From: Stictocephala bisonia
Taxonomy: Eukaryota; Arthropoda; Insecta; Hemiptera; Membracidae
NCBI GenBank assembly: GCA_035578905.1
Contig: JAQJVL010000001.1
Location: 7,574,570-7,638,569, forward strand
Length of the DNA stretch: 64,000 bases
Direction of reading: 5' to 3'
In this document: positions 1,825 to 59,905 of the stretch, piece by piece
Layout of the letters: every line of letters starts with the position of its first letter
How positions within the stretch are numbered: the stretch's first letter is position 1
Position numbers and translations under genes: made by a program
Notes under the pieces: generated by a model
The model's input: the letters and a program-made list of their open reading frames with translations, nothing else
Told to the model about the DNA's origin: nothing
The model's database searches: none

Positions 1825-4800
1825 ATTTTGCACCCCGCAGCATTGTTAACTCTCTCTCCACAGCATTGTTTGCGAATCATTTTGTACCCCTCTCCCCACA
1901 GCATTGTCAGCAAATAATTTTGCACCCCTCTCTCCAAGCATTATGTTTAGCGTAACATTTTATTACCCTATATCCCATCATTATGTTAGCGTAACATTTT
2001 ACACCCCTCTCCCACCAGCTTCATGTTAGCGTAACATTTTACACCCCTCTCTCCCAGAAGTATGTTAGCGTAACATTTTACACTCCTCTCCCACCAGCTT
2101 CATGTTAGCGTAACATTTTACACCCCTCTTCCCCAGCAGTATGTTAGCGTAACATTTTACTCCCCTCTCTCCCAGAAGTATGTTAGCGTAACATTTTACA
2201 CCCCTCTCCCCCAGCATTATGTTAGCGTAACATTTTACTCCCCTCTCCCCCAGCAGTATGTTAGCGTAACATTTTACACCCCTCTTCCCCAGAAGTATGT
2301 TAGCGTAACATTTAACACCCCTCTCCCCCAGAAGTATGTTAGCGTAACATTTTACTCCCCTCTTCCCCAGCAGTATGTTAGCCTAACATTTTACTCCCCT
2401 CTTCCCCAGCAGTATGTTAGCGTAACATTTTACACCCCTCTCCCCCAGAAGTGTGTTAGCGTAACATTTTACTCCCCTCTTCCCCAGCAGTATGTTAGCG
2501 TAACATTTTACACCCCTCTCCCCCAGAAGTATGTTAGCGTAACATTTTACACCCCTCTCCCCCAGAAGTATGTTAGCGTAACATTTTACTCCCCTCTCCC
2601 CCAGCAGTATGTTAGCGTAACATTTTACTCTCCTCTCCCGCAGAAGTATGTTAGCGAAACATTTTACTCCCCTCTCCCCCAGCAGTATGTTAGCGTAACA
2701 TTTTACTCCCCTCTCCCCCAGCAGTATGTTAGCGTAACATTTTACTCCCCTCTCCCCCAGCAGTATGTTAGAGTAACATTTTACTCTCCTCTCCCGCAGA
2801 AGTATGTTAGCGTAACATTTTACTCTCCTCTCCCGCAGAAGTATGTTAGCGAAACATTTTACTGCCCTCTCCCCCAGCAGTATGTTAGCGTAACATTTTA
2901 CTCCCCTCTCCCCCAGCAGTATGTTAGCGTAACATTTTACACCCCTCTCCCCCAGCAGTATGTTAGCGTAACATTTTACACCCCTCTCCCCCAGAAGTAT
3001 GATAGCGTAACATTTTACTCCCCTCTCCCCCAGAAGTATGTTAGCGTAACATTTTACTCCCCTCTCCCCCAGCAGTATGTTAGTGAAACATTTTCCTCTC
3101 CCCCAGCAGTATGTTAGCGTAATATTTTACACCCCTCTCCCCCAGAAGTATGTTAGCGTAACATTTTACTCCCCTCTCCCCCAGAAGTATGTTAGCGTAA
3201 CATTTTACTCCCCTCTCCCCCAGCAGTATGTTAGTGAAACATTTTACTCCCCTCTCCCCCAGCAGTATGTTAGCGTAACATTTTACACCCCTCTCCCCCA
3301 GAAGTATATTAGCGTAATATTATACACCCCTCTCCCACAGAAGTATATTATTGAGATATTTTACTCCCCTCTCCCCCAGCAGTATGTTAGCGTAACATTT
3401 TACACCCCTCTCCCCCAGAAGTATGTTAGTGAAACATTTTACTCCCCTCTTCCCCAGCAGTATGTTAGCGTAACATTTTACACCCCTCTCCCCCAACAGT
3501 ATATTAGCGTAACATTTTACTCCCCTCTCCCCCAGAAGTATGTTAGCGTAACATTTTACACCCCTCTCCCCCAGAAGTATGTTAGTGAAACATTTTACAC
3601 CCCTCTCCCCCAGAAGTATGTTAGCGTAACATTTTACTCCCCTCTCCCCCAGCAGTATGTTAGCGTAACATTTTACACCCCTCTCCCCCAGAAGTATGTT
3701 AGCGTAACATTTTACTCCCCTCTCCCCCAGCAGTATGTTAGCGTAACATTTTACTCTCCTCTCCCCCAAAAGTATTTTAGCGTAACATTTTACACCCCTT
3801 TCCCCCAGAAGTATGTTAGCGTAACATTTTACTCCCCTCTCCCCCAGTAGTATGTTAGCGTAACATTTTACACCCCTCTCCCCCAGAAGTATGTTAGCGT
3901 AACATTTTACACCCCTCTCCCCCCGAAGTATGTTAGCGTAACATTTTACTCCCCTCTCCCCCAGAAGTATGTTAGCGTAACATTTTACTCCCCCAGACGT
4001 ATGTTAGCGTAACATTTTACTCCCCTCTCCCCCAGCAGTATGTTAGCGTAACATTTTACTCTCCTCTCCCGCAGAAGTATGTTAGCGTAACATTTTACAC
4101 CCCTCTCCCCCAGCAGTATGTTAGCGTAACATTTTACTCTCCTCTCCCGCAGAAGTATGTTAGCGTAACATTTTACTCTCCTCTCCCGCAGAAGTATGTT
4201 AGCGAAACATTTAACTCCCCTCTCCCCCAGCAGTATGTTAGCGTAACATTTTACTCCCCTCTCCCCCAGCAGTATGTTAGCGTAACATTTTACACCCCTC
4301 TCCCCCAGCAGTATGTTAGGGTAACATTTTACACCCCTCTCCCCCAGAAGTATGATAGCGTAACATTTTACTCCCCTCTCCCCCAGAAGTATGTTAGCGT
4401 AACATTTTACTCCCCTCTCCCCCAGCAGTATGTTAGTGAAACATTTTCCTCTCCCCCAGCAGTATGTTAGCGTAACATTTTACACCCCTCTCCCCCAGAA
4501 GTATGTTAGCGTAACATTTTACTCCCCTCTCCCCCAGCAGTATGTTAGCGTAACATTTTACACCCCTCTCCCCCAGAAGTATGTTAGCGTAACATTTTAC
4601 ACCCCTCTCCCCCCAAAGTATGTTAGCGTAACATTTTACTCCCCTCTCCCCCAGAAGTATGTTAGCGTAACATTTTACTCCCCTCTCCCCCAGACGTATG
4701 TTAGCGTAACATTTTACTCCCCTCTCCCCCAGCAGTATGTTAGCGTAACATTTTACTCTCCTCTCCCGCAGAAGTATGTTAGCGTAACATTTTACACCCC

Positions 4801-7800
4801 TCTCCCCCAGCAGTATGTTAGCGTAACATTTTACTCTCCTCTCCCGCAGAAGTATGTTAGCGTAACATTTTACTCTCCTCTCCCGCAGAAGTATGTTAGC
4901 GAAACATTTTACTCCCCTCTCCCCCAGCAGTATGTTAGCGTAACATTTTACTCCCCTCTCCCCCAGTAGTATGTTAGCGTAACATTTTACATCCCTCTCC
5001 CCCAGCAGTATGTTAGCGTAACATTTTACACCCCTCTCCCCCAGAAGTATGATAGAGTAACATTTTACTCCCCTCTCCCCCAGAAGTATGTTAGCGTAAC
5101 ATTTTACGCCCCTCTCCCCCAGCAGTATGTTAGTGAAACATTTTCCTCTCCCCCAGCAGTATGTTAGCGTAACATTTTACACCCCTCTCCCCCAGAAGTA
5201 TGTTAGCGTAACATTTTACACCCCTCTCCCCCAGAAGTATGTTAGCGTAATATTTTACACCCCTCTCCCCCAGAAGTATATTATTGAGATATTTTACTCC
5301 CCTCTCCCCCAGCAGTATGTTAGCGTAACATTTTACACCCCTCTCCCCCAGAAGTATGTTAGTGAAACATTTTCCTCTCCCCCAGCAGTATGTTAGCGTA
5401 ACATTTTACACCCCTCTCCCCCAGAAGTATGTTAGCGTAACATTTTACTCCCCTCTCCCCCAGAAGTATGTTAGCGTAACATTTTACTCCCCTCTCCCCC
5501 AGCAGTATGTTAGTGAAACATTTTACTCCCCTCTCCCCCAGCAGTATGTTAGCGTAACATTTTACACCCCTCTCCCCCAGAAGTATGTTAGCGTAATATT
5601 TTACACCCCTCTCCCCCAGAAGTATATTATTGAGATATTTTACTCCCCTCTCCCCCAGCAGTATGTTAGCGTAACATTTTACACCCCTCTCCCCCAGAAG
5701 TATGTTAGTGAAACATTTTACTCCCCTCTCCCCCAGCAGTATGTTAGCGTAACATTTTACACCCCTCTCCCCCAGCAGTATATTAGCGTAACATTTTACA
5801 CCCCTCTCCCCCAGAAGTATGTTAGCGTAACATTTTACACCCCTCTCCCCCAGAAGTATGTTAGTGAAACATTTTACACCCCTCTCCCCCAGAAGTATGT
5901 TAGCGTAACATTTTACTCCCCTCTCCCCCAGCAGTATGTTAGCGTAACATTTTACACCCCTCTCCCCCAGAAGTATGTTAGCGTAACATTTTACTCCCCT
6001 CTCCCCCAGCAGTATGTTAGCGTAACATTTTACTCTCCTCTCCCCCAGAAGTATGTTAGCGTAACATTTTACACCCCTCTCCCCCAGAAGTATGTTAGCG
6101 TAACATTTTACTCCCCTCTCCCCCAGCAGTATGTTAGCGTAACATTTTACACCCCTCTCCCCCAGAAGTATGTTAGCGTAACATTTTACACCCCTCTCCC
6201 CCCGAAGTATGTTAGCGTAACATTTTACTCCCCTCTCCCCCAGAAGTATGTTAGCGTAACATTTTACTCCCCTCTCCCCCAGACGTATGTTAGCGTAACA
6301 TTTTACTCCCCTCTCCCCCAGCAGTATGTTAGCGTAACATTTTACTCTCCTCTCCCGCAGAATTATGTTAGCGTAACATTTTACACCCCTCTCCTCTAGC
6401 AGTATGTTAGCGTAACATTTTACTCTCCTCTCCCGCAGAAGTATGTTAGCGTAACATTTTACTCTCCTCTCCCGCAGAAGTATGTTAGCGAAACATTTTA
6501 CTCCCCTCTCCCCCAGCAGTATGTTAGCGTAACATTTTACTCCCCTCTCCCCCAGCAGTATGTTAGCGTAACATTTTACACCCCTCTCCCCCAGCAGTAT
6601 GTTAGCGTAACATTTTACACCCCTCTCCCCCAGCAGTATGTTAGTGAAACATTTTCCTCTCCCCCAACAGTATGTTAGCGTAACATTTTACACCCCTCTC
6701 CCCCAGAAGTATGTTAGCGTAACATTTTACTCCCCTCTCCCCCAGCAGTATGTTAGCGTAACATTTTACACCCCTCTCCCCCAGAAGTATGTTAGCGTAA
6801 CATTTTACACCCCTCTCCCCCCCAAGTATGTTAGCGTAACATTTTACTCCCCTCTCCCCCAGAAGTATGTTAGCGTAACATTTTACTCCCCTCTCCCCCA
6901 GACGTATGTTAGCGTAACATTTTACTCTCCTCTCCCGCAGAAGTATGTTAGCGTAACATTTTACTCTCCTCTCCCGCAGAAGTATGTTAGCGAAACATTT
7001 TACTCCCCTCTCCCCCAGCAGTATGTTAGCGTAACATTTTACTCCCCTCTCCCCCAGCAGTATGTTAGCGTAACATTTTACACCCCTCTCCCCCAGCAGT
7101 ATGTTAGCGTAACATTTTACACCCCTCTCCCCCAGAAGTATGATAGCGTAACATTTTACTCCCCTCTCCCCCAGAAGTATGTTAGCGTAACATTTTACTC
7201 CCCTCTCCCCCAGCAGTATGTTAGTGAAACATTTTCCTCTCCCCCAGCAGTATGTTAGCGTAACATTTTACACCCCTCTCCCCCAGAAGTATGTTAGCGT
7301 AACATTTTACTCCCCTCTCCCCCAGAAGTATGTTAGCGTAACATTTTACTCCCCTCTCCCCCAGCAGTATGTTAGTGAAACATTTTACTCCCCTCTCCCC
7401 CAGCAGTATGTTAGCGTAACATTTTACACCCCTCTCCCCCAGAAGTATGTTAGCGTAATATTTTACACCCCTCTCCCCCAGAAGTATATTATTGAGATAT
7501 TTTACTCCCCTCTCCCCCAGCAGTATGTTAGCGTAACATTTTACACCCCTCTCCCCCAGAAGTATGTTAGTGAAACATTTTACTCCCCTCTCCCCCAGCA
7601 GTATGTTAGCGTAACATTTTACACCCCTCTCCCCCAGCAGTATATTAGCGTAACATTTTACACCCCTCTCCCCCAGAAGTATGTTAGCGTAACATTTTAC
7701 ACCCCTCTCCCCCAGAAGTATGTTAGTGAAACATTTTACACCCCTCTCCCCCAGAAGTATGTTAGCGTAACATTTTACTCCCCTCTCCCCCAGCAGTATG

Positions 7801-8335
7801 TTAGCGTAACATTTTACACCCCTCTCCCCCAGAAGTATGTTAGCGTAACATTTTACTCCCCTCTCCCCCAGCAGTATGTTAGCGTAACATTTTACTCTCC
7901 TCTCCCTCAGCAGTATGTTAGCGTAACATTTTACACCCCTCTCCCCCAGCAGTATGTTAGCGTAACATTTTACTCCCCTCTCCCCCAGCAGTATGTTAGC
8001 GTAACATTTTACACCCCTCTCCCCCAGAAGTATGTTAGCGTAACATTTTACACCCCTCTCCCCCCGAAGTATGTTAGCGTAACATTTTACTCCCCTCTCC
8101 CCCAGAAGTATGTTAGCGTAACATTTTACTCCCCTCTCCCCCAGACGTATGTTAGCGTAACATTTTACTCCCCTCTCCCCCAGCAGTATGTTAGCGTAAC
8201 ATTTTACTCTCCTCTCCCGCAGAAGTATGTTAGCGTAACATTTTACACCCTTCTCCCACCAGCTTTATGTTAGCGAAACATTGTACACCCCTCTCCCCCA
8301 GCAGTATGTTAGCGTTATGTTAGTGGGATGTTTTC
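1825..8335. repeat. 39-bp C/T-rich minisatellite, about 160 units, with splice-acceptor-like units
   Basis: The core unit is GTATGTTAGCGTAACATTTT followed by ACTCCCCTCTCCCCCAGAA (39 bp). Units before about 1980 and after 8240 are degenerate and the middle is homogeneous, as expected for an expanding array. Variants alternate ACTCCCC with ACACCCC and CAGAAG with CAGCAG. Six units (around 3077, 4430, 5127, 5356, 6638 and 7218) have lost 5 bp. Blocks of variant order recur, so kilobase segments have been duplicated inside the array. Because 39 is divisible by 3, both strands show long repeat-peptide frames (YVSVTFYSPLPQK on plus). These start only in the 34-bp units and are not called genes. Every unit also reads as TAAC, pyrimidine tract, CAG. 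Confidence 0.96.
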
Positions 8336-15961: not shown

Positions 15962-16013
15962 TCCACCACAGAAACCGTCTGCTCAGCCGACACCACGGTC
16001 AGCAGCCCAACTG
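15962..16013 (+). CDS. Candidate internal exon A of an unrecognised Pro/Gln-rich protein gene
   Basis: The 52-nt exon is preceded by TTGTTTATCTGTTACAG and followed by the strong donor CTG|GTGAGT. One frame reads PPQKPSAQPTPRSAAQL after one base that completes an upstream codon. It ends in phase 0, which is exactly the phase needed by exon B (26606). The composition is Pro/Gln/Ala-rich, typical of a disordered linker. A second frame, joining straight to exon C, is also open (STTETVCSADTTVSSPT). The product family is not recognised. Upstream exons are not found in the window. The call rests on splice sites and phase agreement only, without any homology. Confidence 0.5.
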
Positions 16014-20200: not shown

Positions 20201-21384
20201 GACTCTTTGTTTATTGTAACTGGCCACAACACTTGATATGTTGCCTGTAAATGTCTAACAATTATTAATGTTACAGCATTATCATAGGAAATAACATTAA
20301 TTTATTCATTGTTGTTAGCTTATTTAACTCTCATTATAATTATTAACCTCTGAATTTGATAACATTTTAATGAGAAGACCTTCAGAGTGCAAAATCTATC
20401 GCTGCTTAGGGATGCATAGAGATCTATATGTACAAGTAACGCCTAAACCAGGGAGTATAGAGAAAAACCAGAGATCCAATGGCAATATTTTTGGCGCTAG
20501 TTCAATCACATTTGTGTATTCCTTTAAATTTGAGTATTTTTATAAATTTTACTGTTAAATATGTGAAACTTTAATTGCGACTTTTTACAATTAAACTTGA
20601 AAAACTCTTTAATTGAAAGGACCTTTAATAATTGTACAGCGTTCATTATAGCTCATTATGACAATTAACACAAAATAAAGTTTAAATATAAAAGTCCAGG
20701 AAGACGTGGCAACAGCGCGAACAGTGACCTGGCCGGCCACGGGCTTCAGTTATGCTTCAGCGCACATTGATGTCTGTTTATTTATCAGGTGATATAAAAT
20801 CACAGGATATTATTATAATAGCCCAAAATATATTTCGCTATTTATAAGCAATATTGAAATGTTGTGTGATTAGCCTTCTGAGATTGCAAGGGTTTAAAAT
20901 AATAACAAGAAATGTTTTCGAAAGTAACATTTCAGGAACTACCCGTACGGTAAAAAGCTTTATGCTTAGAATGTTGAAATAGTCGAAATTGCAACAATCT
21001 AAGCTTAACAGTTTTTTGTACAACATTTTAAAGTGGAACCTTGTTTCAAAATTTCTAAAACTAAGTGTTTTTCTTTTTCACAAAACCACATTAAAAATTA
21101 TTTTTGGTTAAAATAAAAAAGTGCTACTTATATGAAATGAAATTTAAATTGTCTTTATCAGTGGTGAAGTTAGGACCCAAGTGGAAGTAGAGTTTTATGT
21201 GGTGAGACGCAGAATCAAACGAGCTAAAATTAGGATTTAATTTTTAGAAATTAAATTAATATTAGATTTATACCGAAGTTCAAACCCTAATAAATTGCAT
21301 TTTGAAACTGACAGTAGATCCTACGGGTGCTGCTATCGAGGTGTTGAGAAGTTGGCCCAGCCGGCTGACTCAGCCATCACCAAT
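20201..21384. other. AT-rich intronic sequence
   Basis: No supported exon, RNA or transposon end. A slightly GC-rich patch (GTGACCTGGCCGGCCACGGG) lies near 20725. Confidence 0.4.
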
Positions 21385-21985
21385 CTCACACGCCAGTTAC
21401 TGACACGCCAATTACTCACACGCCAGTAATTCGCTCACCAGTTACTACTCACACACTAGTTACTCGAACGCCAGTCTGTGATACATCAGTTACCCACACG
21501 CCAGTAATTCGCACACCAGTTACTCACATGCCAGTCACTAAAACACCAGTTACCTACATGCCTGTGATTTTCTCACCATTTACTCACACGCCAGTCACTA
21601 AGACACCAGCTACCCACACGAATGTAATTTGCTCACCAGGTACTACTCGCACACCAGTTACTCAAACGCCAGTCTCTTACACACCAGTTTCCTACACGCC
21701 TGTAATTCGCTCACCAGGTATTCGCAAACCAATTACTCACACGCCAGTCATTGACACACCAGTTACTACCCACATGCCTGTGATTCGCTCACCAGTTACT
21801 CGCACACCAGTTACTCACACGCCAGTCACTATAACACCAGTTACCCACGCCTGTAATTCACTCACCAGTTACTCACACGCCAATTACTCATACGCCTGTA
21901 ATTCGCTCACCAGTTACTCGCACACTAGTTACCCACACGCCTGTAATTCGCTCACCAGTTACTCACACGCCTGTAATTCACAGGC
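21385..21985. repeat. 15/30-bp degenerate minisatellite (CACACGCCAGTTACT)
   Basis: A short core ACTCACACGCCAGTTACTCA alternates with TGTAATTCGCTCACCAGTT. The period is irregular, about 15 bp organised in larger 30-60 bp groups. On plus it reads as repeated TPVTHTPV peptides over 161 codons, which I treat as repeat-derived. Confidence 0.88.
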
Positions 21986-22892
21986 CATTCACTCTATTGA
22001 CGCTCTCTATTGAGAATGCATTGAAACTGCACTCATAAAAACTTGTGTTTAATTCATCGTGCTCCTTTAGCGGATTAGGTGAAAGTTTTAGTGAAACATA
22101 TCGTAGAATCAAAGATGCATGTCTGATGAATATTATTTTATATTTAAAACAGAATGACATTTTTGTTTAGTTTGCTTATCTGTGTTTTTCGCTGAGCACA
22201 ATGGTTTACAAGACTCCAACTGAGACTTGTAATAAACTTTGCAACTTTGTAATATACTTCGTGCTAGGTGTTTGAAGTTTAAGGATGTTTAGATTCTCGA
22301 AGCAAAACCATCAAGAGTGGGTTGTTGGGTTTTTATAATTTAATAATTATAGCATTAAACTTCCGGTAATTATTAAGTTATAGATAAGTAATATTTGATA
22401 TTTAACGTAATTTTATATTTTTTTACAGTTCTGTCTGTTTTTATCTTTTACCTACAAATGGTAAAATAGTAATCCAGAACTAAGTGATTTGAAGTTCTGG
22501 CTTTTTATGACTTACATTACTCTAAACAACGTCATTCAATCAGCCAATCGTTTAAAACAAATTAGTCTTAATATTATTATTTTGTCTGCTTTCTATATCC
22601 TCCATGTTTTTACACTAACGTGAATCTTTAACATAAAAGAAAACCCTAAATGATTACTGAAGTAAAACCAATCTAACAATGTTAATGAAACTCCCTAAAT
22701 TCTACAATGAAATAAATCACACTTTACAGATATTTTTTAAAAGATACCACGTTTGTTCATGTAGATTCTAAAATGTTTGAAATAATACGGACAAGAAATT
22801 TCCAAACAGGAAGTTGCACAACTATTTACAAATCTTAAGTTCAATTCAAATAGTTAAACCCCTCGTTCCGAAAGATAATACTTTGGGTTTTA
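21986..22892. other. AT-rich intronic sequence
   Basis: No supported gene or repeat seen. Confidence 0.4.
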
Positions 22893-24920
22893 TACCGGGT
22901 GTCCCAAAAGTCTTAGAACTTCGTTTTAATTTGTTATTAGTTATAGAACTATAAAGCTTTAGAGTTTCGTCATTGGTATTGTTTCCTACGTTATGACACA
23001 TTTTTCAGTAATTTTGCCTTACTGGGGAACGTCCCATGGAGGAAGTCGTTACAATTTCAAATGTAAGCCAAGTTTAGAATTTAGAGTTCGGCATGATGTA
23101 AAGAAATATAAGCATCCTTTAGATTTTTTCAGCCATACGTTAGATAGTTTGACAATTTAAACTTCACTAAATCTTTTAATGTTAGGAGAAATATTGAAGA
23201 CGACGTGACTATCTTAAGAAGAGTTTGGCTCGGTACTACTTTAATACCAATGTACTCCAGTTGCATGTATATATAAGTACTATAAGTGAAGAGTATTAGA
23301 ATCCACTCACCTACTTATACACGTACAATGGAACTAACCCACCCGCCCACCCATACACGTACAGTGGAACTGCATTGTAATACAATACAATACAATACAA
23401 ATCTGCGTGTATGGGTGGGAGGGTGGGTCTATACCAATGTGCGTGTATGGGTGGGAGGGTGGGTCAATACCAATGTGCTTGTATGGGTGGGAGTGTGGGT
23501 TAATACCAATGTGCGTGTTTGGGTGGGAGGGTAAGTCATTACCAATGTGCGTGTATGGGTGGGAGGGTGGGTAAATACTAATGTGCGTGAATGGGTGGGA
23601 GGGTGGGTCAATACCAATGTGCGTGTATGGGTGAGAGGGTGGGTCAATAACAATGTGCGTGTATGGGTGGGAGGGTGGGTCAATACCAATGTATGTGTAT
23701 GGGTGGGAGGGTGGGTCAATACCAATGTGCGTGTATGGGTGGGAGGGTGGGTCAATACCAATGTATGTGTATGGGTGGGAGGGTGGGTCAATACCAATGT
23801 GCGTGTATGGGTGAGAGGGTGGGTCAATAACAATGTGCGTGTATGGGTGGGAGGGTGGGTCAGTACCAATGTATGTGTATGGGTGGGAGGGTGGGTCAAT
23901 ACCAATGTGTGTGTATGGGTGAGAGGGTGGGTCAATACCAATGTGCGTGTATGGGTGGAAGGGTGGGTCATTACCAATGTACGTGTATGGGTGCGAGGGT
24001 GGGTCAATCCTACTGTACGTGTAGGGGTGGGAGGGTGGGTCAGTATCACTGTACGTGTAGGGGTGGGAGGGTTATAAATGTCATAAAACGTAGCACCTAA
24101 TTTTAAAGTTATTTGGTTTTTAAAATACAATGCCGCAAATGTGACTTCAAGAGGTTCACTTATTCAAAAATGGCAGCCCTTTAAAGTTTTGCTTGATGAA
24201 AGCCAAACATTAGGATTATAACGTTATTAGTAAATGTAGAACTATGACATTTTAGCGTTTCGTCATTGGTATTGTTTCCTACGTTATGACACATTTTTCA
24301 TTTATTTCGCCTAATGGGGGACGTCTCGTGGAGGATGTCGTGGCAATTTCAAATGTAAGCCTAGGTCGAGTAGCACTTCATTTTAAAGATTTTTGTTTTA
24401 AAATACAATGCCGTAGATTCGACTTCAAAAAGTTCACTCAGTCAAAAATGTTTTTAAGTTTTTTTAATTTTACTAACGGTTTTACTTGGGATAATTCTGC
24501 GCGTCACAGTAAGTGTCTAAAAACCATCCTACTAATTGAACAAATAAACACTTTTTAGGACTTCTGCATGTTCATTTTATTCCTTGAAAAAAAATACACG
24601 TTATAGCCTTAATGTGTAGCTTTCATAAAACACAACTTGAAAGGGCTGTCATTTTTGAATAAGTGAGCCTTTTGCAGTCGCATTTGCGGAATTATATTTT
24701 AAAACCAAATACCTTTAAAATGAGGTGCTACTCGGCCTTGGCTTACATTTGAAATTGCCACGACTTCCTCCACGGGACGTTCCCCCTGTTAGCGAAATAA
24801 CTGAAAAGTGTGTCGTAACGTAGCAAAAAATTCCAATGACGAAAAGCTAAAATTTCATAGTTATAAATTTACTAATAAAGAAATTATTACGAAGTTCTAA
24901 GACTTTTGGGACACCCGGTA
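22893..24920. mobile_element. 2-kb fold-back TIR element carrying a minisatellite
   Basis: The left end TACCGGGTGTCCCAAAAGTC and the right end GACTTTTGGGACACCCGGTA are exact 20-bp inverted repeats. Pairing continues inward (GACACATTTTTCAGTAATTT on the left; AACTGAAAAGTGTGTCGTAA on the right) for about 250-300 bp. A third, direct copy of the arm sequence lies at 24235-24470. The centre is occupied by a 36-bp G-rich minisatellite at 23290-24075. No transposase frame is recognised. The terminus is related to that of the element at 14597. Confidence 0.85.
23290..24075. repeat. 36-bp G-rich minisatellite with internal orientation switch
   Basis: About two C-rich units (ACCCACCCGCCCACCCATAC) come first, then an (ATACA)n microsatellite near 23376-23400. 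About 19 units of the opposite orientation follow (GTGCGTGTATGGGTGGGAGG, GTGGGTCAATACCAAT). Each G-rich unit contains GGGTGGGAGGGTGGG, four G-triplets with single-base loops. The frame length comes from the period of 36, and the apparent peptides are artefacts. Confidence 0.94.
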
Positions 24921-28035: not shown

Positions 28036-28794
28036 AAATACAGGCAGACCAACGGATAACGGTGTGAGATAGATTTTTGTACGCATGACATTTTTAGTTT
28101 GTTTAAACTTAAGGGGTACGTCTGAGCTTTTTCAAAATATACTTTTTACCTCTAATTTGAATGCTTGTATTTTTCTATATTTCCTATGTATAGTGGTAGT
28201 TTAGAATGCAAATATTTCCAATATATGAAGGTATTTTTATGTATAAATTTGTTGTTCTTGCATTATAAACATGTGTAGTTTCTTTTTGAAAAATTTCGTT
28301 TGGATATGAGAATAGATTCAAATATGAACAATCCATAAACTGTCAGTATATACATAATTCTGTAAGATTATTTTTGCACAATACTGATAGTTATGATTTT
28401 TGTCTGAAAGTTAAATAGTTATGTTTATATCATTATGTTATGTTAGAAACTTATATTTTATATCATTATAGATATTTTAGTTTTTTTTTTTTTTTCTACT
28501 TTTGTTGCGAATGTTAGTACATAACATTAGTCATGGTGAGTATTTTATTTATGAGGTCAGTTAGGTGAATTGATAGAAGTGGTGGGTTATAATGCATTAA
28601 ATTAAACGCTAATTCGTGGTAGAATATTTTAACATTACTTGAAGTTTACAACGAAAATTGAAGTAAATAAAAATAGTTTTTTTGTTATAATAAGATACTG
28701 TCTTGTTGTTTTGTCACTTTTGTATGAATATTATTTGATTATGTGTACATTTATTATCGTATACTATCTGGCTTGTAGGTTTCGCCACGTACGT
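28036..28794. other. AT-rich intron
   Basis: Nothing supported; one poly-T run of about 15 bases lies near 28481. Confidence 0.4.
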
Positions 28795-29190
28795 ACCACT
28801 GTACGTGTATAGGTGGGCGGGTGGGTCAATACCACTGTACGTGTATAGGTGGGCGGGTGGGTCAATACCACTGTACGTGTATAGGTGGGCGGGTGGGTCA
28901 ATACCACTGTACGTGTATGGGTGGGCGGGTGGGTCAATACCACTGTACGTGTATGGGGGGCCGGGTGGGTCAATACCACTGTATGTGTATATGTGGGTGG
29001 GTGGGTCAATACCACTGTACGTGTATAGGTGGGCGGGTGGGTCAATACCACTGTACGTGTATGGGGAGGGGGGCGGGTGGGTCAATACCACTGTATGTGT
29101 ATGGGTGGACGGGTGGGTCAACACCACTGTACGTGTATAGGTGGGTGGGTGGGTCAATACCACTGTACGTATATAGGTGGGCGAGTGGGT
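28795..29190. repeat. 36-bp G-rich minisatellite, 11 units
   Basis: The unit is CACTGTACGTGTATAGGTGG followed by GCGGGTGGGTCAATAC. Where the fourth triplet is intact it reads GGGTGGGCGGGTGGG, a four-triplet run with one-base loops. The plus strand is G-rich, so pre-mRNA of the candidate gene would carry the G-rich repeat. Apparent Cys/His-rich or Tyr-rich peptides of 90-180 residues are period artefacts. Confidence 0.95.
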
Positions 29191-30184
29191 CATGATAGTA
29201 AAACTGAATGATTTAAAATTTGATGAAATAATACTTGGTTTCAAGATGTAGAGGTTCTTCAAATATACTAACTTTTGTTTGCTATAGTGATTAATAATTG
29301 TATTTAAAAACTAATTTTACTTCGATAATTACTTAGACATATTACTTTACCTAATCCTTGTTGAAAGATTTTGATAAAGCGTTATGTATAAAATTATTCA
29401 TACATGACTGTTAAGAAATAGTATTGTGGTCAATATAGTAAGGTTAAGAAGGAGGTCGGCCTCTCCTTAGTAATGAAAAAAAATACAGTTTCTGTGTTTA
29501 TTAAATAATAATAACTTAAGTCAAACAGTAATTGTATAATGTTGATTTGTACTCATACAAAATACTATGAAACCCCGTGGCATTGTTTGTTGATACTAGT
29601 AGTGGTTTTAATACCATATATTCTTTTTATAATTTTCAGTTTTTTTAAAGATTATTTTATGTTACCATAGATCGTTGATTTCGTTACATAGATAGTAATA
29701 AATAAACATTATCTGCTGTAGCACAGCTACTACTAGACTGAACGACTGTTGACTAATGAAAAGTAATTATATATGATAAAAGTAAGCTTTAAAATGCAAG
29801 TCTATGTCTGGAGACAGACAGGTTCGACCACGTTCCTTGGGATAGGCAGGACCATGCAGGACTGTAGTTAGTGCGTGCGACTGATAACTGATTTGACAAC
29901 ACGATGTCCCTCTGAGGCCAAACATAGATGGATTTCCCCTGTAATAAGGACTCACGAGTGTTGCTCGTTTCCCTTATCCCGCTGACTCTCTGGTTTATAA
30001 ATACCTAAACATAATAATAAGCTATTATTATTTATTATATAAGTTAATAACAATTACAAAAACATTTTTTACACTCCAACAGCGAATAGCAACAATATAC
30101 AGGGTTCTAATGTTCTTAAGTTTTCTTCATCATTTATGTAAAGGGAATTTCAATCTTATAAATCCTTATGCATGTATAAACATC
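29191..30184. other. AT-rich intron
   Basis: No supported exon. 29800-29990 on minus has a GGTCGAACCTG B-box-like motif and could be a decayed SINE, but no A box is clear. Confidence 0.35.
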
Positions 30185-33915: not shown

Positions 33916-34031
33916 GAAACCCACTGAGGAACATTTCGGAGTTGTTGGGCCTCAACATGCCTCGTGGGCCCACCCTGGGACAGAGCTCTCAGAGTCAGTG
34001 GTCTCCTCCTGCGCAACCTACTGAAAATAAG
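33916..34031 (+). CDS. Candidate exon C of the same gene
   Basis: The 116-nt exon has the strong acceptor TTTTGTGTCTTTCAG and the donor AATAAG|GTAAAC. With the G left by exon B it forms Gly and then 38 codons: NPLRNISELLGLNMPRG at the start and SQSQWSPPAQPTENK at the end, leaving in phase 0. The other two frames contain stops. Its GC content is clearly above the AT-rich flanks, and the Gln/Ser/Pro-rich end matches exon A in style. I do not recognise the family. The donor is continued by a 40-bp array that copies it (34032-35745). This is the best-supported exon in the window. Confidence 0.62.
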
Positions 34032-35745
34032 GTAAACACTACTTCTTTCCACGTGATCACTATACAATAAGGTAAACACTAGTACTTTCCACGTGATCAC
34101 TATACAATAAGGTAAACACTAGTTCTTTCCACGTGATCACTATTCAATAAGGTAAACACTACTTCATTCCACTGATCACTATACAATAAGGTAAACACTA
34201 GTACTTTCCACGTGATCACTATTCAATAAGGTAAACACTACTTCATTCCACGTGATCACTATACAATAAGGTAAACACTAGTACTTTCCACGTGATCACT
34301 ATTCAATAAGGTAAACACTACTTCATTCCACGTGATCACTATACAATAAGGTAAACACTACTTCTTTCCACGTGATCACTATTCAATAAGGTAAACACTA
34401 CTTCATTCCACGTGATCACTATACAATAAGGTAAACACTACTTCGTTCCACGTGATCACTATTCAATAAGGTAAACACTACTTCATTCCACGTGATCACT
34501 ATTCAATAAGGTAAACACTAGTTCTTTCCACGTGATCACTATTCAATAAGGTAAACACTACTTCTTTTCACGTGATTACTATACAATAAGGTAAACACTA
34601 CTTCTTTTCACGTGATCACTATACAATAAGGTAAACACTACTTCTTTTCACGTGATTACTATACAATAAGGTAAACAACACTACTTCTTTCCACGTGATC
34701 ACTATACAATAAGGTAAACACTACTTCTTTTCACGTAATCACTATACAATAAGGTAAACACTACTTCTTTTCACGTGATTACTATACAATAAGGTAAACA
34801 CTACTTCTTTTCACATGATTACTATACAATAAGGTAAAGATAACTTCTTTTCACGTGATCACTATACAATAAGGTAAACACTACTTCTTTCCACGTGATC
34901 ACTATACAATAAGGTAAACACTACTTCTTTTCACGTGATCACTATACAATAAGGTAAACACTACTTCTTTTCACGTGATTACTATACAATAAGGTAAACA
35001 CTACTTTTTTCACGTCATTACTATACAATAAGGTAAACAGTAGGCCTACTTCTTTTCACGTGATCACTATACAATAAGGTAAACACTACTTCTTTTCACG
35101 TGATCACTATACAATAAGGTAAACACTACTTTTTTCACGTCATTACTATACAATAAGGTAAACAGTACTTCTTTTCACGTGATCACTATACAATAAGGTA
35201 AACACTACTTCTTTTCACGTGATCACTATACAATAAGGTAAACACTACTTCTTTTCACGTGATCACTATACAATAAGGTAAACACTACTTCTTTTCACGT
35301 GATCACTATACAATAAGGTAAAGACAACATCTTTTCACGTGATCACTATACAATAAGGTAATCACTACTTCTTTTCACGTGATTACTATACAATAAGGTA
35401 AACACTACTTCTTTTCACATGATTACTATACAATAAGGTAAAGACAACATATTTTCACGTGATCACTATACAATAAGGTAATCACTACTTCTTTTCACGT
35501 GATTACTATACAATAAGGTAAACACTACTTCTTTTCACATGATTACTATACAATAAGGTAAAGACAACATCTTTTCACGTGATTACTATACAATAAGGTA
35601 AAGACAACATCTTTTCACGTGATCACTATACAATAAGGTAAACACTACTTCTTTTCACGTGATCACTATACAATAAGGTAAACACTACTTCTTTTCACGT
35701 GATTACTATACAATAAGGTAAACACTACTTCTTTTCACGTGATCA
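34032..35745. repeat. 40-bp minisatellite repeating the exon C splice donor, about 43 units
   Basis: The unit is GTAAACACTACTTCTTTTCA followed by CGTGATCACTATACAATAAG. The first unit begins exactly at the exon C donor. The end of each unit (CAATAAG) imitates the end of the exon (AAATAAG), so nearly every unit recreates AATAAG|GTAAAC. Most units also hold CACGTG, and most later ones the 8-bp palindrome TCACGTGA, next to GTGATCAC. Reading on from exon C in phase 0 meets TAA after 12 codons, at 34068. Confidence 0.95.
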
Positions 35746-36365
35746 CTACAAAATACAACACCATGAATGTGTTTCATAAATACGTTCATGTGATGATCCA
35801 TTCTAATTGTTACAAAACTAGGGGACACCTCTGCACGCTTCAAATGCCAACCTCGTGTCTCAGATCGTGACACCTTGGCATTCGGCCTCGGCCTCGGCAT
35901 GTGACTTTTGACTGTATAAGTGATTAAACTGTATTAAGTAAAATCATAGTATGTAAATTTATTTACAGAAACTCGCTCAGTATATTTTAAAAACTGACTA
36001 TTTAATTTAACAGTTGGTGATAAATTAAATGAATGAAAAATCTCTATTAGATTACCATTTGAACTTAAATGGCCAGTGGGGCAAGTGTGACTATAAAAGT
36101 GTGATTTATAACTTTCTCTGGAAAAATAAATAACTTCCCCAAAATGTCATGACGATCGGATAAATGGTGTAGCAGTGTATAACTAAAAACGAGACTAGTT
36201 AAAATAATTATGAAAATTGGGTGGAACGCTTGTATACCATAATTACCATCTGGTTTGTTCAAGTATAACAAACAATATACAGTCGTTTATATCTGAGTCC
36301 CAAACTCATGAACGTACGTGGCTCTAGTTACCAAAGGACCTGAAAGTTTTCCTTACTAAGATTAT
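35746..36365. other. Unique sequence
   Basis: 35870-35900 contains GGCATTCGGCCTCGGCCTCG, a short GC-rich repeat. No exon is supported. Confidence 0.4.
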
Positions 36366-38827: not shown

Positions 38828-39050
38828 TTAGGCGATCCAGTGGCCGAGCGGTCTAAGGCGTCAGGACTTCGAGCTTGGGTTAGTGATAGCGCTGGTTCGA
38901 ATCCGGTCTAGACTGAAAGATGTATCAGTAATATTCACATTGCACTGTACTGGTTTGCCCCCTTTACTCTGTCTGAATAGTTCCCCTCACACATATCAAT
39001 AGTCTATATGAAATGGGTAGAGGAAGGCTAAGAAAGTTTTTACTAAATGG
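38828..39050 (+). mobile_element. SINE with tRNA-Leu/Ser-like head, copy 2
   Basis: The A box TGGCCGAGCGGTCTAAGGCG is of class II tRNA (Leu/Ser) type, and the B box is GGTTCGAATCC. The acceptor-side context (TCCAGTGGCC ... GGTCTAGACTG) and an extra arm are tRNA-like. The tRNA-unrelated body (TGTATCAGTAATATTCAC, GTACTGGTTTGCCCCC, ACTCTGTCTGAATAG, ATCAATAGTC) matches the copies at 19340 and 42322. The box order makes plus the transcribed strand. Confidence 0.85.
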
Positions 39051-49551: not shown

Positions 49552-49870
49552 ACCACATATGGATGAGTAGGTGGGTAGACACTATGTACGGGTATGGGTG
49601 GGCTTGTAGGTCAATATCACGTGAAAAGGAAGACGGGTGGGTATGGGTGAGCGGGTAGTTCAATACCTCCATATTCGTATGGGTGAGCGGGTGGGTTAAT
49701 ACCACCATAAGTGTATGGGCGAGTGAGTGGGTCAATACCACCATAAGTGTATGGGTGAGAGGGTGGGCCAACACCACCATATGTGTATGGGTGAGAGGGT
49801 GGGTCAATACCACCATATGTGTATGAAAGGATGGGTGGATCAATACCACGTCACGTGTATCGGTAGACGG
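49552..49870. repeat. 36-bp G-rich minisatellite, diverged, 8-9 units
   Basis: Units such as CACCATATGTGTATGGGTGA and GAGGGTGGGTCAATAC belong to the same family as 28795 and 23400 but are more diverged (GTGAGAGGGTGGG), so most lack the perfect four-triplet run. Confidence 0.9.
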
Positions 49871-51064
49871 GTATGTTAGTATTAAAACAGTAATTAAATG
49901 TATTTAGTGTGTTTTATTTTTTTTTTTTTAATTGATAGTCTTGATTTATTTTCAACTCTTTAATATGAGGCTTTGTCGATAGAGGAAAATATTAGTCCTG
50001 TGTTAGCCTGTTGAACCATAATTGTATAATAAAGTGATTATTATTAAACTATTAATTAGTTTAACGTAGCCACGTCGAATAAAATCCTATCTTCCATTAT
50101 TATGTCCGTATTTATTCGTAAAGTCTGTAAGAAACCATGATCACGTGATAACGACCATCTGATATGAGACGAGAAGCTGGGAGTAGTTTTGGACAGTTGT
50201 TTTGCTGCCAACTCGTCCCCACACCCACCCCAGCCTTGATGAACGGAGTACTACTACTGGTCACAATTCACCCGATGCTGTCCCAGACAGAACTGCGTCT
50301 CCTTATACACGATCCCTCTTCACTACTCCTTAACTCTTCTAAGTGAATGGATCAAAATTAGGTATTAATGCACTCTCTAGACGTTTATGAAAATACGATT
50401 TCTTGGTGAAAAAGAGGTAAAAAGTTAGTTTATATTAAATAATAATAACTCTTTACTTACCGAAATATTACAATTGACATTGTTGTTGATTTACGTACAC
50501 AAATCGGTAAATAATAGGTACCCCCTATTCGTAAACTAAAATAGTAGGTACCAACTGTGTAATAAATAAATTCATTAAAATTATAATATTAGATTAAAAA
50601 GAGATAATTTTTGCTAGAGTAGGGCTACATGTACAAAAAAATAAATAAATAAAATAAAAGTAAAAACTAAAATACACAACCAACCAAAAATACTTACATA
50701 CATACACTATTGCATGTCAACACAATATCAAATTAAGTTACAAAACAAAAAATCATGTTCACAATAATATTATAACGTAGTTAGTAGAATTTTAAAATAA
50801 ACACAGTACCAATTAAAACGAACGATATTTTAAATATATTCTTGAAATTCCATAAACAAAATTTATCCAAATAAAGCTTCAACATCATCAATGTTTAAAA
50901 GAAGCTTTTTTTAATTTACCCAAATATCCCGTGGTATCACTGTCCTGAAAAATAATAGTTACTGTCTTATTGAGTAGTTTACAGTAGGTGCAGTGTAGCT
51001 GTAAAAAAGTTTGAGTTGTGTTAAAAACGGTCTGGGAATTGGCGTAGAAAGATTATTTCGTAAA
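49871..51064. other. AT-rich spacer
   Basis: No supported feature. Confidence 0.4.
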
Positions 51065-54150: not shown

Positions 54151-54555
54151 ATGACCCACCCGCCCACCCATACACGTACGGTGATACTGACGTGTCACCA
54201 TTACCACTGTACGTGTTTGGGTGGGTGGGTGGTCAATGCCACTGAACGTGTATGAGTGGGCGGGTACACCACTGTACGTGTGTGGGTGTGCGGATGGATC
54301 AACACCACAGTATGTGTGTGGGTGTGCGAGTGGGTCATTACCACTGTACGTGTATTGGTGGGCGGGTGGGTCAATACCACTGCACGTGTATGGGTGGGCG
54401 GGTGGGTCAATACCATTTTACATGTAAGGGTGGGCGGTTGGGTCAATACCACTGTACGTGTATGGGGGGTGAGAGGGTTAATACCACTGTACATGTATGG
54501 GTGGGCGAGAGGGTCAATACCACTGTACGTGTATGGGTGGGCGGGTGGGTACCGT
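54150..54555. repeat. 36-bp G-rich minisatellite with an inverted leading unit
   Basis: One C-rich unit (GACCCACCCGCCCACCCATA, CACGTACGGTGA) comes first. After a 10-15 base turn, about 10 G-rich units follow (CCACTGTACGTGTATGGGTG, GGCGGGTGGGTCAATA). Several units hold GGGTGGGCGGGTGGG. It has the same head-to-head start as at 23290 and 42075. Confidence 0.93.
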
Positions 54556-58725: not shown

Positions 58726-58862
58726 TATTTTTACTAATATAACGTGACTTTTGAAGTTTTTCCAAATATATTACAGCTTATTTATTTATTTTTTTTAATT
58801 AATAAATTGTAGCTGACATCAAACCATACACGATGTATATACATAGTATATTACTACTAATA

Positions 58863-59020
58863 TTTTTGTACGTGTATGGGTGGGTGGGTCAATATCACTG
58901 TACGTGTATGGGTGGGTGGGTCAATACTACTGTAGGTATGGGTGTATGGATGAGTCAATACCACTGTACTGTATATGTGAGCGAGTGGGTTGATACCACT
59001 GTACGTGTATGGGTGGGTAG
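58863..59020. repeat. 36-bp minisatellite family, G-rich units
   Basis: Four diverged units such as GTACGTGTATGGGTGGGTGG and GTCAATATCACT. Confidence 0.85.
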
Positions 59021-59280: not shown

Positions 59281-59399
59281 AGGTGTAACAGAGAAATTTT
59301 AATCCTAACCTAACCAATCGTTACAAAAGTTTTCAATAAAGTCATCATTTATTTAATTCGTTTCAATAGTTTAATTTGTATTCTTAATTTCATTTAGGA

Positions 59400-59905
59400 A
59401 TATTGGCCCGCCCACCCATACGTGTACAGTAATGTTGACCCACCCACCGTCAAATACGCGTACAGTAATATTTACCAACCTACCCATATTTGTACAGTAA
59501 TGTTGACCCACCCACCCTCAAATACGCGTACAGTAATATTTACCAACCCACCTGTACGTGTACAGTAATTCTGACCCACGCACACTCAAATACGCGTACA
59601 GTAATGTTGATCCACCTACCCTCAAATACGCGTACAGTAATATTCACCAACCCACCCATACGTGTACAGTAATGTTGACCCACCCACTCTCAAATACGCG
59701 TACAGTAATATTTACCAACCCACTCATACGTGTACAGTAATGTTAACCCACCCACCCTCAAATACGCGTACAGAAATATTTACCAACCCACCCATACGCG
59801 TACAGTAATATTGACCCACCAACCTGTACACGTAGGGTAATACTGACCCACTCATCAACCCATACACGTACAGAAATATTGGCCCATAAACTCACCCTTA
59901 CACGA
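59400..59905. repeat. C-rich derivative array with alternating units
   Basis: About 14 units alternate between GACCCACCCACCCTCAAATA with CGCGTACAGTAATATT, and TACCAACCCACCCATACGTG with TACAGTAATGTT. The two-unit (about 72-bp) period makes a higher-order array of the 36-bp family. Frames of 60 codons are artefacts. Confidence 0.9.

Follow-up and report, generated by a model that had tools for sequence, protein, structure and literature searches.

How does a minisatellite come to start at a 5' splice site and to repeat that site in every one of its units, and how is the true site then told from its copies? The question is raised by a 40-bp repeat that adjoins an exon, hereafter exon C, located in a window of 64,000 nucleotides (the whole stretch of DNA analysed here, positions 7574570-7638569 of contig C1). 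The reading that we favour, and to which we assign a probability of roughly 0.6, is that the array is an ordinary, locally born minisatellite, seeded by happenstance across the junction of exon C and its intron in a functional-looking CPEB1/orb gene, with units that copy a weak donor and evolve nearly neutrally. The array and its donor-like sites are located as follows.

34026..35755, plus strand: 40-bp minisatellite of 43 units, the 42 complete ones being of 22 types
34026..34037, plus strand: true donor AATAAG/GTAAAC, that is, the last six exon and the first six intron bases (PWM score 2.8; U1 duplex -6.8 kcal/mol)
34066..35721, plus strand: 42 further donor-like sites AATAAG/GTAA, the first at 34066-34075 and the last at 35712-35721

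TRF, applied to the 64-kb window, reports positions 34026-35755 as a minisatellite with a period of 40, 43.1 copies, 92% matches and 1% indels. When the array is split at its junction motif, all 43 junctions read AATAAG/GTAA (AATAAGGTAA), no unit being omitted between them, and the spacing from junction to junction is 40 nt with the exceptions of 39, 43, 39, 46 and 39. Counting exon C's own donor, the 9-mer around the GT is AAGGTAAAC (AAG/GTAAAC) at 36 of the 43 sites, AAGGTAAAG at five and AAGGTAATC at two; the seven variants depart from the true donor solely at +5 or +6, and G is absent from +5 at all 43 sites, A or T being present instead. The preliminary description of this DNA, which had proposed a minisatellite of about 43 units copying an exon's 5' splice site and remaking it in nearly every unit, is thus borne out on both counts. 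Its statement that the array starts at the exon C donor is right in that the array adjoins this donor, and has to be amended in that the start, at 34026, lies six bases within exon C and not at the donor GT itself (34032). Exon end and unit are identical over exactly six bases before the GT, and upstream of these six bases no similarity between the two was detected (P = 0.43), so that the unit cannot be regarded as exon C sequence that has diverged.

Homology and phase support the view that exon C and its donor are real, and from the same two lines of evidence we infer that this donor ('donor 1') is the one used. The exons on which the argument draws are:

15962..16013, plus strand: probable exon B (CPEB1/orb), 52 nt, STTETVCSADTTVSSPT plus G, with donor CTG/GTGAGT (from donor, phase and a short match to homologue P0001)
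33916..34031, plus strand: exon C (CPEB1/orb), 116 nt, encoding NPLRNISELLGLNMPRGPTLGQSSQSQWSPPAQPTENK (from homology, by tblastn and alignment, and from phase)
81361-81542, plus strand: exon D (from the phase-matched chain; numbers above 64000 continue the window downstream)
83327-83429, plus strand: exon E (from the phase-matched chain, in the same continued numbering)
86445-86682, plus strand: exon F (from the phase-matched chain, and followed by the RRM exons, in the same continued numbering)

The chain was obtained from a scan with laxer cut-offs of the window and 200 kb downstream of it (264 kb). A generic exon scan with strict cut-offs ranked exon C first in the window; in the laxer scan it came 17th in the list for 264 kb, outscored by repeat frames, two of which sit within arrays of the window, and by candidate exons of other genes. 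Scanning alone would be insufficient proof of exon C, and it is homology that provides this proof. With tblastn, seven of ten homologues match exon C at 54.5-73% identity, and the ten homologues combined place the exons from C through the ZZ domain in order and without a stop, so that this part of the gene looks intact; the stop-free reading covers exon C onward. Exon B, for which the ten homologues gave no tblastn match above 24 bits, has a good donor (PWM score 7.1), a phase out that fits the phase in of exon C, and an SPTG/N resembling that of P0001. The exon C block ISELLGLNMPRG is clear in nine of 11 aligned homologues, much altered in P0015 and missing from P0005. The C/D junction TENK/RMRPP aligns with LRNQ/SMRPP of P0001, and exon C joins exon D in phase across an intron of, by coordinates, 47,329 nt.

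The gene could be identified as CPEB1/orb only after the downstream sequence had been read: exon C alone, searched with a widened length window, yielded five candidates and no match, Pfam, run initially on ten open frames from the window, gave nothing for exon C, and the N-terminal chain of 230 residues matched no Pfam family. The assembled RRM part (in a chain without one exon between the RRM parts) matches CPEB1 in the PDB at 1.2e-67 and CPEB4 at 2.7e-37, tandem CPEB-type RRMs are present (Pfam RRM_7, 5.4e-18), and an exon for the C-terminal zinc-binding ZZ domain was found with tblastn. A protein search returned 1066 matches at E <= 1e-10 among 4135 candidates; the best nine of the 120 matches listed include Graphocephala, Homalodisca (two), Clastoptera, Lycorma and treeshrew CPEB1, with P0001 as top match, and suggest that the DNA probably belongs to an auchenorrhynchan bug allied to the leafhoppers. 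Taken together, the sequence argues for a CPEB1/orb gene that looks functional. Exon C was located at one place only in the assembly. An intronless open frame of 461 codons (from a TTG) was observed separately on the minus strand at L032:685-2070 (G000 contig C109 near 502120-502554); it comprises both RRMs and the ZZ region of CPEB1, shares 46% identity with the intron-bearing gene along 162 residues and 97% with P0007 (from another source), and looks like an old retrocopy that stayed open. In a 13-row protein tree two of ten inner branches are starred, the parent row lacking exons that were found afterwards, and no conclusion is based on this tree.

As to the origin of the array, a duplication across the exon-intron junction, which had been suspected from the outset, is probably the seed and the likeliest origin. 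It involves two partners:

34018..34029, plus strand: end of exon C, CTACTGAAAATA, proposed as the left partner in the seeding microhomology
35746..35755, plus strand: right end of the array CTACAAAATA, without a donor, proposed right partner of the seeding microhomology

Apart from the six-nt identity described above, this origin is suggested by (i) the restriction of the repeat to this locus, all 18 matches in the 1.68-Gb assembly lying within this array (a search that scores best candidates only and skips very common words, and hence is no proof of rarity), and (ii) the microhomology at the far end, where the right end of the array matches the exon end at ten of ten bases with one 2-nt gap, a fit attained by 1.25% of the 62,081 window 20-mers outside the array (P = 0.0125). 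Slippage, or an event at microhomology, would have fused the end of exon C (..AAAATAAG) with similar sequence lying some 40 nt inside the intron; the product would have been a unit of about 40 bp with an end like the exon and a start like the intron, from which subsequent duplications and homogenisation would have generated 43 copies. It counts against this explanation that the seeding microhomology would require two further changes to give the present unit end. Growth itself would fit multi-unit duplication followed by change: among units 1-13, units two apart differ by a mean edit distance of 1.27 and adjacent units by one of 2.83, and units 36-38 are a near repetition of units 33-35. Exact repeats of at least 120 bp were not found inside the array, so that these duplications are not very recent, and the nearly repeated groups of units imply that array length is probably variable.

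The end of exon C (34018-34031) was itself possibly altered together with the array. Its last codon is AAG (Lys); six of the seven closest aligned rows have Gln at this position (P0001, P0002, P0003, P0006, P0009 and P0015) and P0005 has Arg. The change may have preceded the seed, or may have been copied from the array.

An alternative is that an unrelated array drifted beside exon C and that the six common bases are coincidental. Abutment of an array and an exon is, taken alone, unremarkable, because arrays cover 22% of the region (54 arrays, 57,815 bases, in 264 kb): when the arrays are placed at random, 16% of trials (P = 0.16) bring some array end to within 7 bp of one of 28 exon ends, these being the ends of 14 exons, nine of CPEB1/orb (some ends approximate) and five unverified candidates of other genes, in a list that omits two CPEB1/orb exons found later. 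Extrapolated roughly from this density (54 arrays in 264 kb), chance could bring many exon ends into contact with arrays across the genome. Donor-like GTs are, moreover, commonly held by other arrays. GTs that pair U1 as well as the true donor does number 0.96 per unit here and, among 11 other arrays, 1.91, 1.71 and 1.72 in three and 0.7 in a fourth; outside the array, 4.0% of GTs pair U1 that well. Carrying a donor-like GT in every unit does not set this array apart. The tandem repetition as such certainly exceeds chance. The distinguishing features here are the identity of unit 1 with the very beginning of the intron and the identity of the copies with the true donor. A mere neighbour would have to account for six identical bases along with an identical intron start, which make unit 1 the intron's own first 40 bases, and for a repeat that the assembly search found nowhere else, and we consider such a juxtaposition very improbable.

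Further repeats were observed in the region. At 1917-8315 of the window, upstream of exon B, there are about 165 copies of a 39-bp unit with a pyrimidine-rich run ending in CAG (ACTCCCCTCTCCCCCAG), so that on the plus strand every copy looks like a 3' splice site. Six separate arrays belong to one family of G-rich minisatellites with a unit of about 36 bp (GTATGGGTGGG..GGGTGGGTCAATACCAC), a distribution that would suit a unit able to spread by itself; in the 200 kb downstream there are likewise arrays of 36-bp period, and three of the G-rich arrays hold 1.7 to 1.9 donor-like GTs per unit.

23393-24072, 28794-29192, 49641-49873, 54202-54552, 58859-59018 and 59399-59886, in both orientations: arrays of the G-rich unit of about 36 bp

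Positions 21369-22010 are occupied by an array of a 15-bp repeat (61% matches) that is open over 214 codons and Thr-Pro-rich (HTPVT), and positions 38833-38916 by a tRNA-like stretch (Rfam tRNA score 29.1 versus a threshold of 29) that has an unusual anticodon and may be a SINE derived from a tRNA. Phage and viral-contig look-ups gave no match.

Is the copied donor, once repeated, maintained? Variation affects 14 of the 40 columns of the unit and spares all ten donor columns. For columns named beforehand, a core unchanged in 43 of 43 units exceeds the neutral prediction (P = 0.006), yet P is 0.065 if so long a run is allowed anywhere, and both values are lenient in that changes within a unit are not independent. 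The constancy of the core counts to this extent against neutrality. Column clustering compared over 12 arrays gave P = 0.013 for the first array, 0.065 for the exon C array and 0.24 to 1.0 for the other ten, a comparison which makes the unchanged core weak evidence for selection; there is thus a hint in the sequence that the donor core may be kept by selection.

The preliminary description had suggested scoring the units with a splice-site model. Donor 1 and most copies are identical, and they are weak (PWM score 2.8; model U1 energy -6.8 kcal/mol), with model duplex energies of -6.6 to -6.8 kcal/mol for the array copies and -6.6 for the AAGGTAATC form. The corresponding energies for other donors of the gene are -9.2 (exon B), -11.1 (D), -8.0 (E), -6.9 (F), -12.3 (RRM2) and -10.6 kcal/mol (I), exon F's own donor being as weak as the array copies. 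The earlier proposal that the array absorbs U1 is not supported by these values, since in a simple duplex model the Boltzmann weights of all 43 sites sum to 4% of that of the exon D donor, 9% of exon I and 86% of exon B. The same numbers bear on the idea of a U1 sponge, or telescripting element, whose many U1 sites would retain U1 on the long intron. On the sense strand 41 GTs at or below -6.8 kcal/mol are packed into 1.7 kb, with none of that strength on the opposite strand, and their summed weight is nearly that of the exon B donor; measured against exons D and I, however, the sum is small, and other arrays of the window carry more such sites per unit, so that a sponge appears highly improbable.

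A strong RNA-folding shield over the copies was also considered and set aside: exon C with five units folds no better than shuffled sequences (z = -0.18), and the true donor is only slightly more open than the copies (0.061 versus a mean of 0.039, rank 3 of 43). Given that most 9-mers are identical, donor strength cannot separate the true site from its copies, and from these models we infer that exon definition and distance would be left as discriminators.

The consequences of choosing wrongly can be read from the frame.

34068..34070, plus strand: in-frame TAA, 12 codons past exon C, reached via a later donor or a kept intron

When exon C is read into the array, VNTTSFHVITIQ is followed by TAA after 12 codons, as had been predicted for later donors; the first four of these, which are the ones tested, yield the same stop, so that their use would bring the early stop expected of a poison exon. 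Skipping of exon C (116 nt) likewise breaks the frame, and accurate use of donor 1 hence matters for the protein. Under our favoured reading, exon definition, helped by the shortness and GC richness of exon C and by its good acceptor, would together with proximity favour donor 1, the nearest copies would leak at a low rate that is largely independent of copy number and thereby give a stop after 12 extra codons, and the leaked transcripts would be removed by nonsense-mediated decay. We expect from the sequence that the first donor would be dominant, with a low, decay-bound leakage to nearby copies, which is likely though small; control of splicing by copy number is conceivable.

These expectations can be set beside a close precedent, the intron-18 VNTR of human ABCA7, which is a 25-bp minisatellite of about 12 to 427 units whose first GT is the exon-18 donor (PMC5954066). 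In that report an isoform that retains one unit (25 nt) through use of the next GT, with an early stop, is put at 2 +/- 1% independently of VNTR length, whereas skipping of exon 19 depends on VNTR length and total expression falls with it (PMC5954066). The exon C array is alike in beginning at the exon's donor and in having a donor in every unit (43 of 43); it differs from the VNTR so described in lying in another gene, in its 40-bp unit and in belonging to an insect, and it is known from the genome alone.

The later donors might instead be put to use, yielding early-stop transcripts in set tissues or stages, lowering CPEB1 and letting array length set the dose. The shared in-frame TAA of the four donors tested and the donor columns unchanged in all units (P = 0.006) would suit such a regulated array of poison donors, the open intronless CPEB1-like copy could buffer losses, and total ABCA7 expression drops as the VNTR lengthens (PMC5954066). 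The copies are weak and without G at +5, however, one-unit retention in ABCA7 is constant across VNTR lengths (PMC5954066), and the run of unchanged columns reaches only P = 0.065 when not named beforehand; we therefore hold regulation of this kind to be quite unlikely. More unlikely still, in our judgement, would be a mutable form of dose control, with array length setting the share of CPEB1 pre-mRNA that goes to dead-end donors, selection keeping the donor core of 43 units, and the intronless CPEB1-like gene permitting it.

Array length might also act on the next exon or on intron removal and not on donor choice; a longer array would then cause exon D to be skipped, or the 47-kb intron to be retained, more often. 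The VNTR of ABCA7, at the same position relative to its exon, is described as raising skipping of the following exon with length (PMC5954066), and the nearly repeated groups of units make a variable length probable here. The unit sequence, however, differs from that of ABCA7, whose authors point to splice-factor motifs (PMC5954066), and exon C lies at one place only in the assembly; a length effect of this type we regard as tentative and, on balance, unlikely. Finally, AAG/GTAA places AG against GT in every unit, and the units could be imagined as recursive-splicing sites (zero-length exons) that help to remove the long intron of 47,329 nt. The AG, however, is preceded by A at -3 and has no adjoining pyrimidine tract, and the four unit acceptors tested score -2.7 to -1.8, whereas eight acceptors inferred for this gene score 1.7 to 5.2; a pyrimidine-rich acceptor directly before the GT was not found in any of the four units scored. 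Recursive splicing is therefore extremely improbable.

Other systems are related more loosely. In human segmental duplications, internal tandem repeats at exon-intron boundaries change splicing (PMC2812944); they consist of four 30-bp units on average and are located in exons or at boundaries, with some forming new introns, whereas the exon C array has 43 units and lies inside the intron. In the model of Rogers, introns are gained by tandem duplication of an AGGT segment (PMC4974935). Each unit of the exon C array likewise duplicates AGGT; unlike in that model, the array implies no new intron, and four unit acceptors scored poorly. CeRep25B of C. elegans is an intronic minisatellite linked to splicing (PMC4039745), a named repeat with short motifs near many alternative exons, for which the abstract describes no copied donor. 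Among the literature matches listed, none is an account of the present locus. With ABCA7, VNTRs seeded at a donor are a known kind already, of which the exon C array would be a further example, recognized from DNA, in an insect.

The locus amounts to a natural competition test, in which one true donor of a conserved gene faces 42 copies further downstream, of which 35 have exactly its 9-mer. As donor strength is constant, the right site can be picked out only by its position or by its exon context. Together with ABCA7, the exon C array suggests that the growth of tandem repeats across donors may recur as a type of mutation in array-rich genomes.
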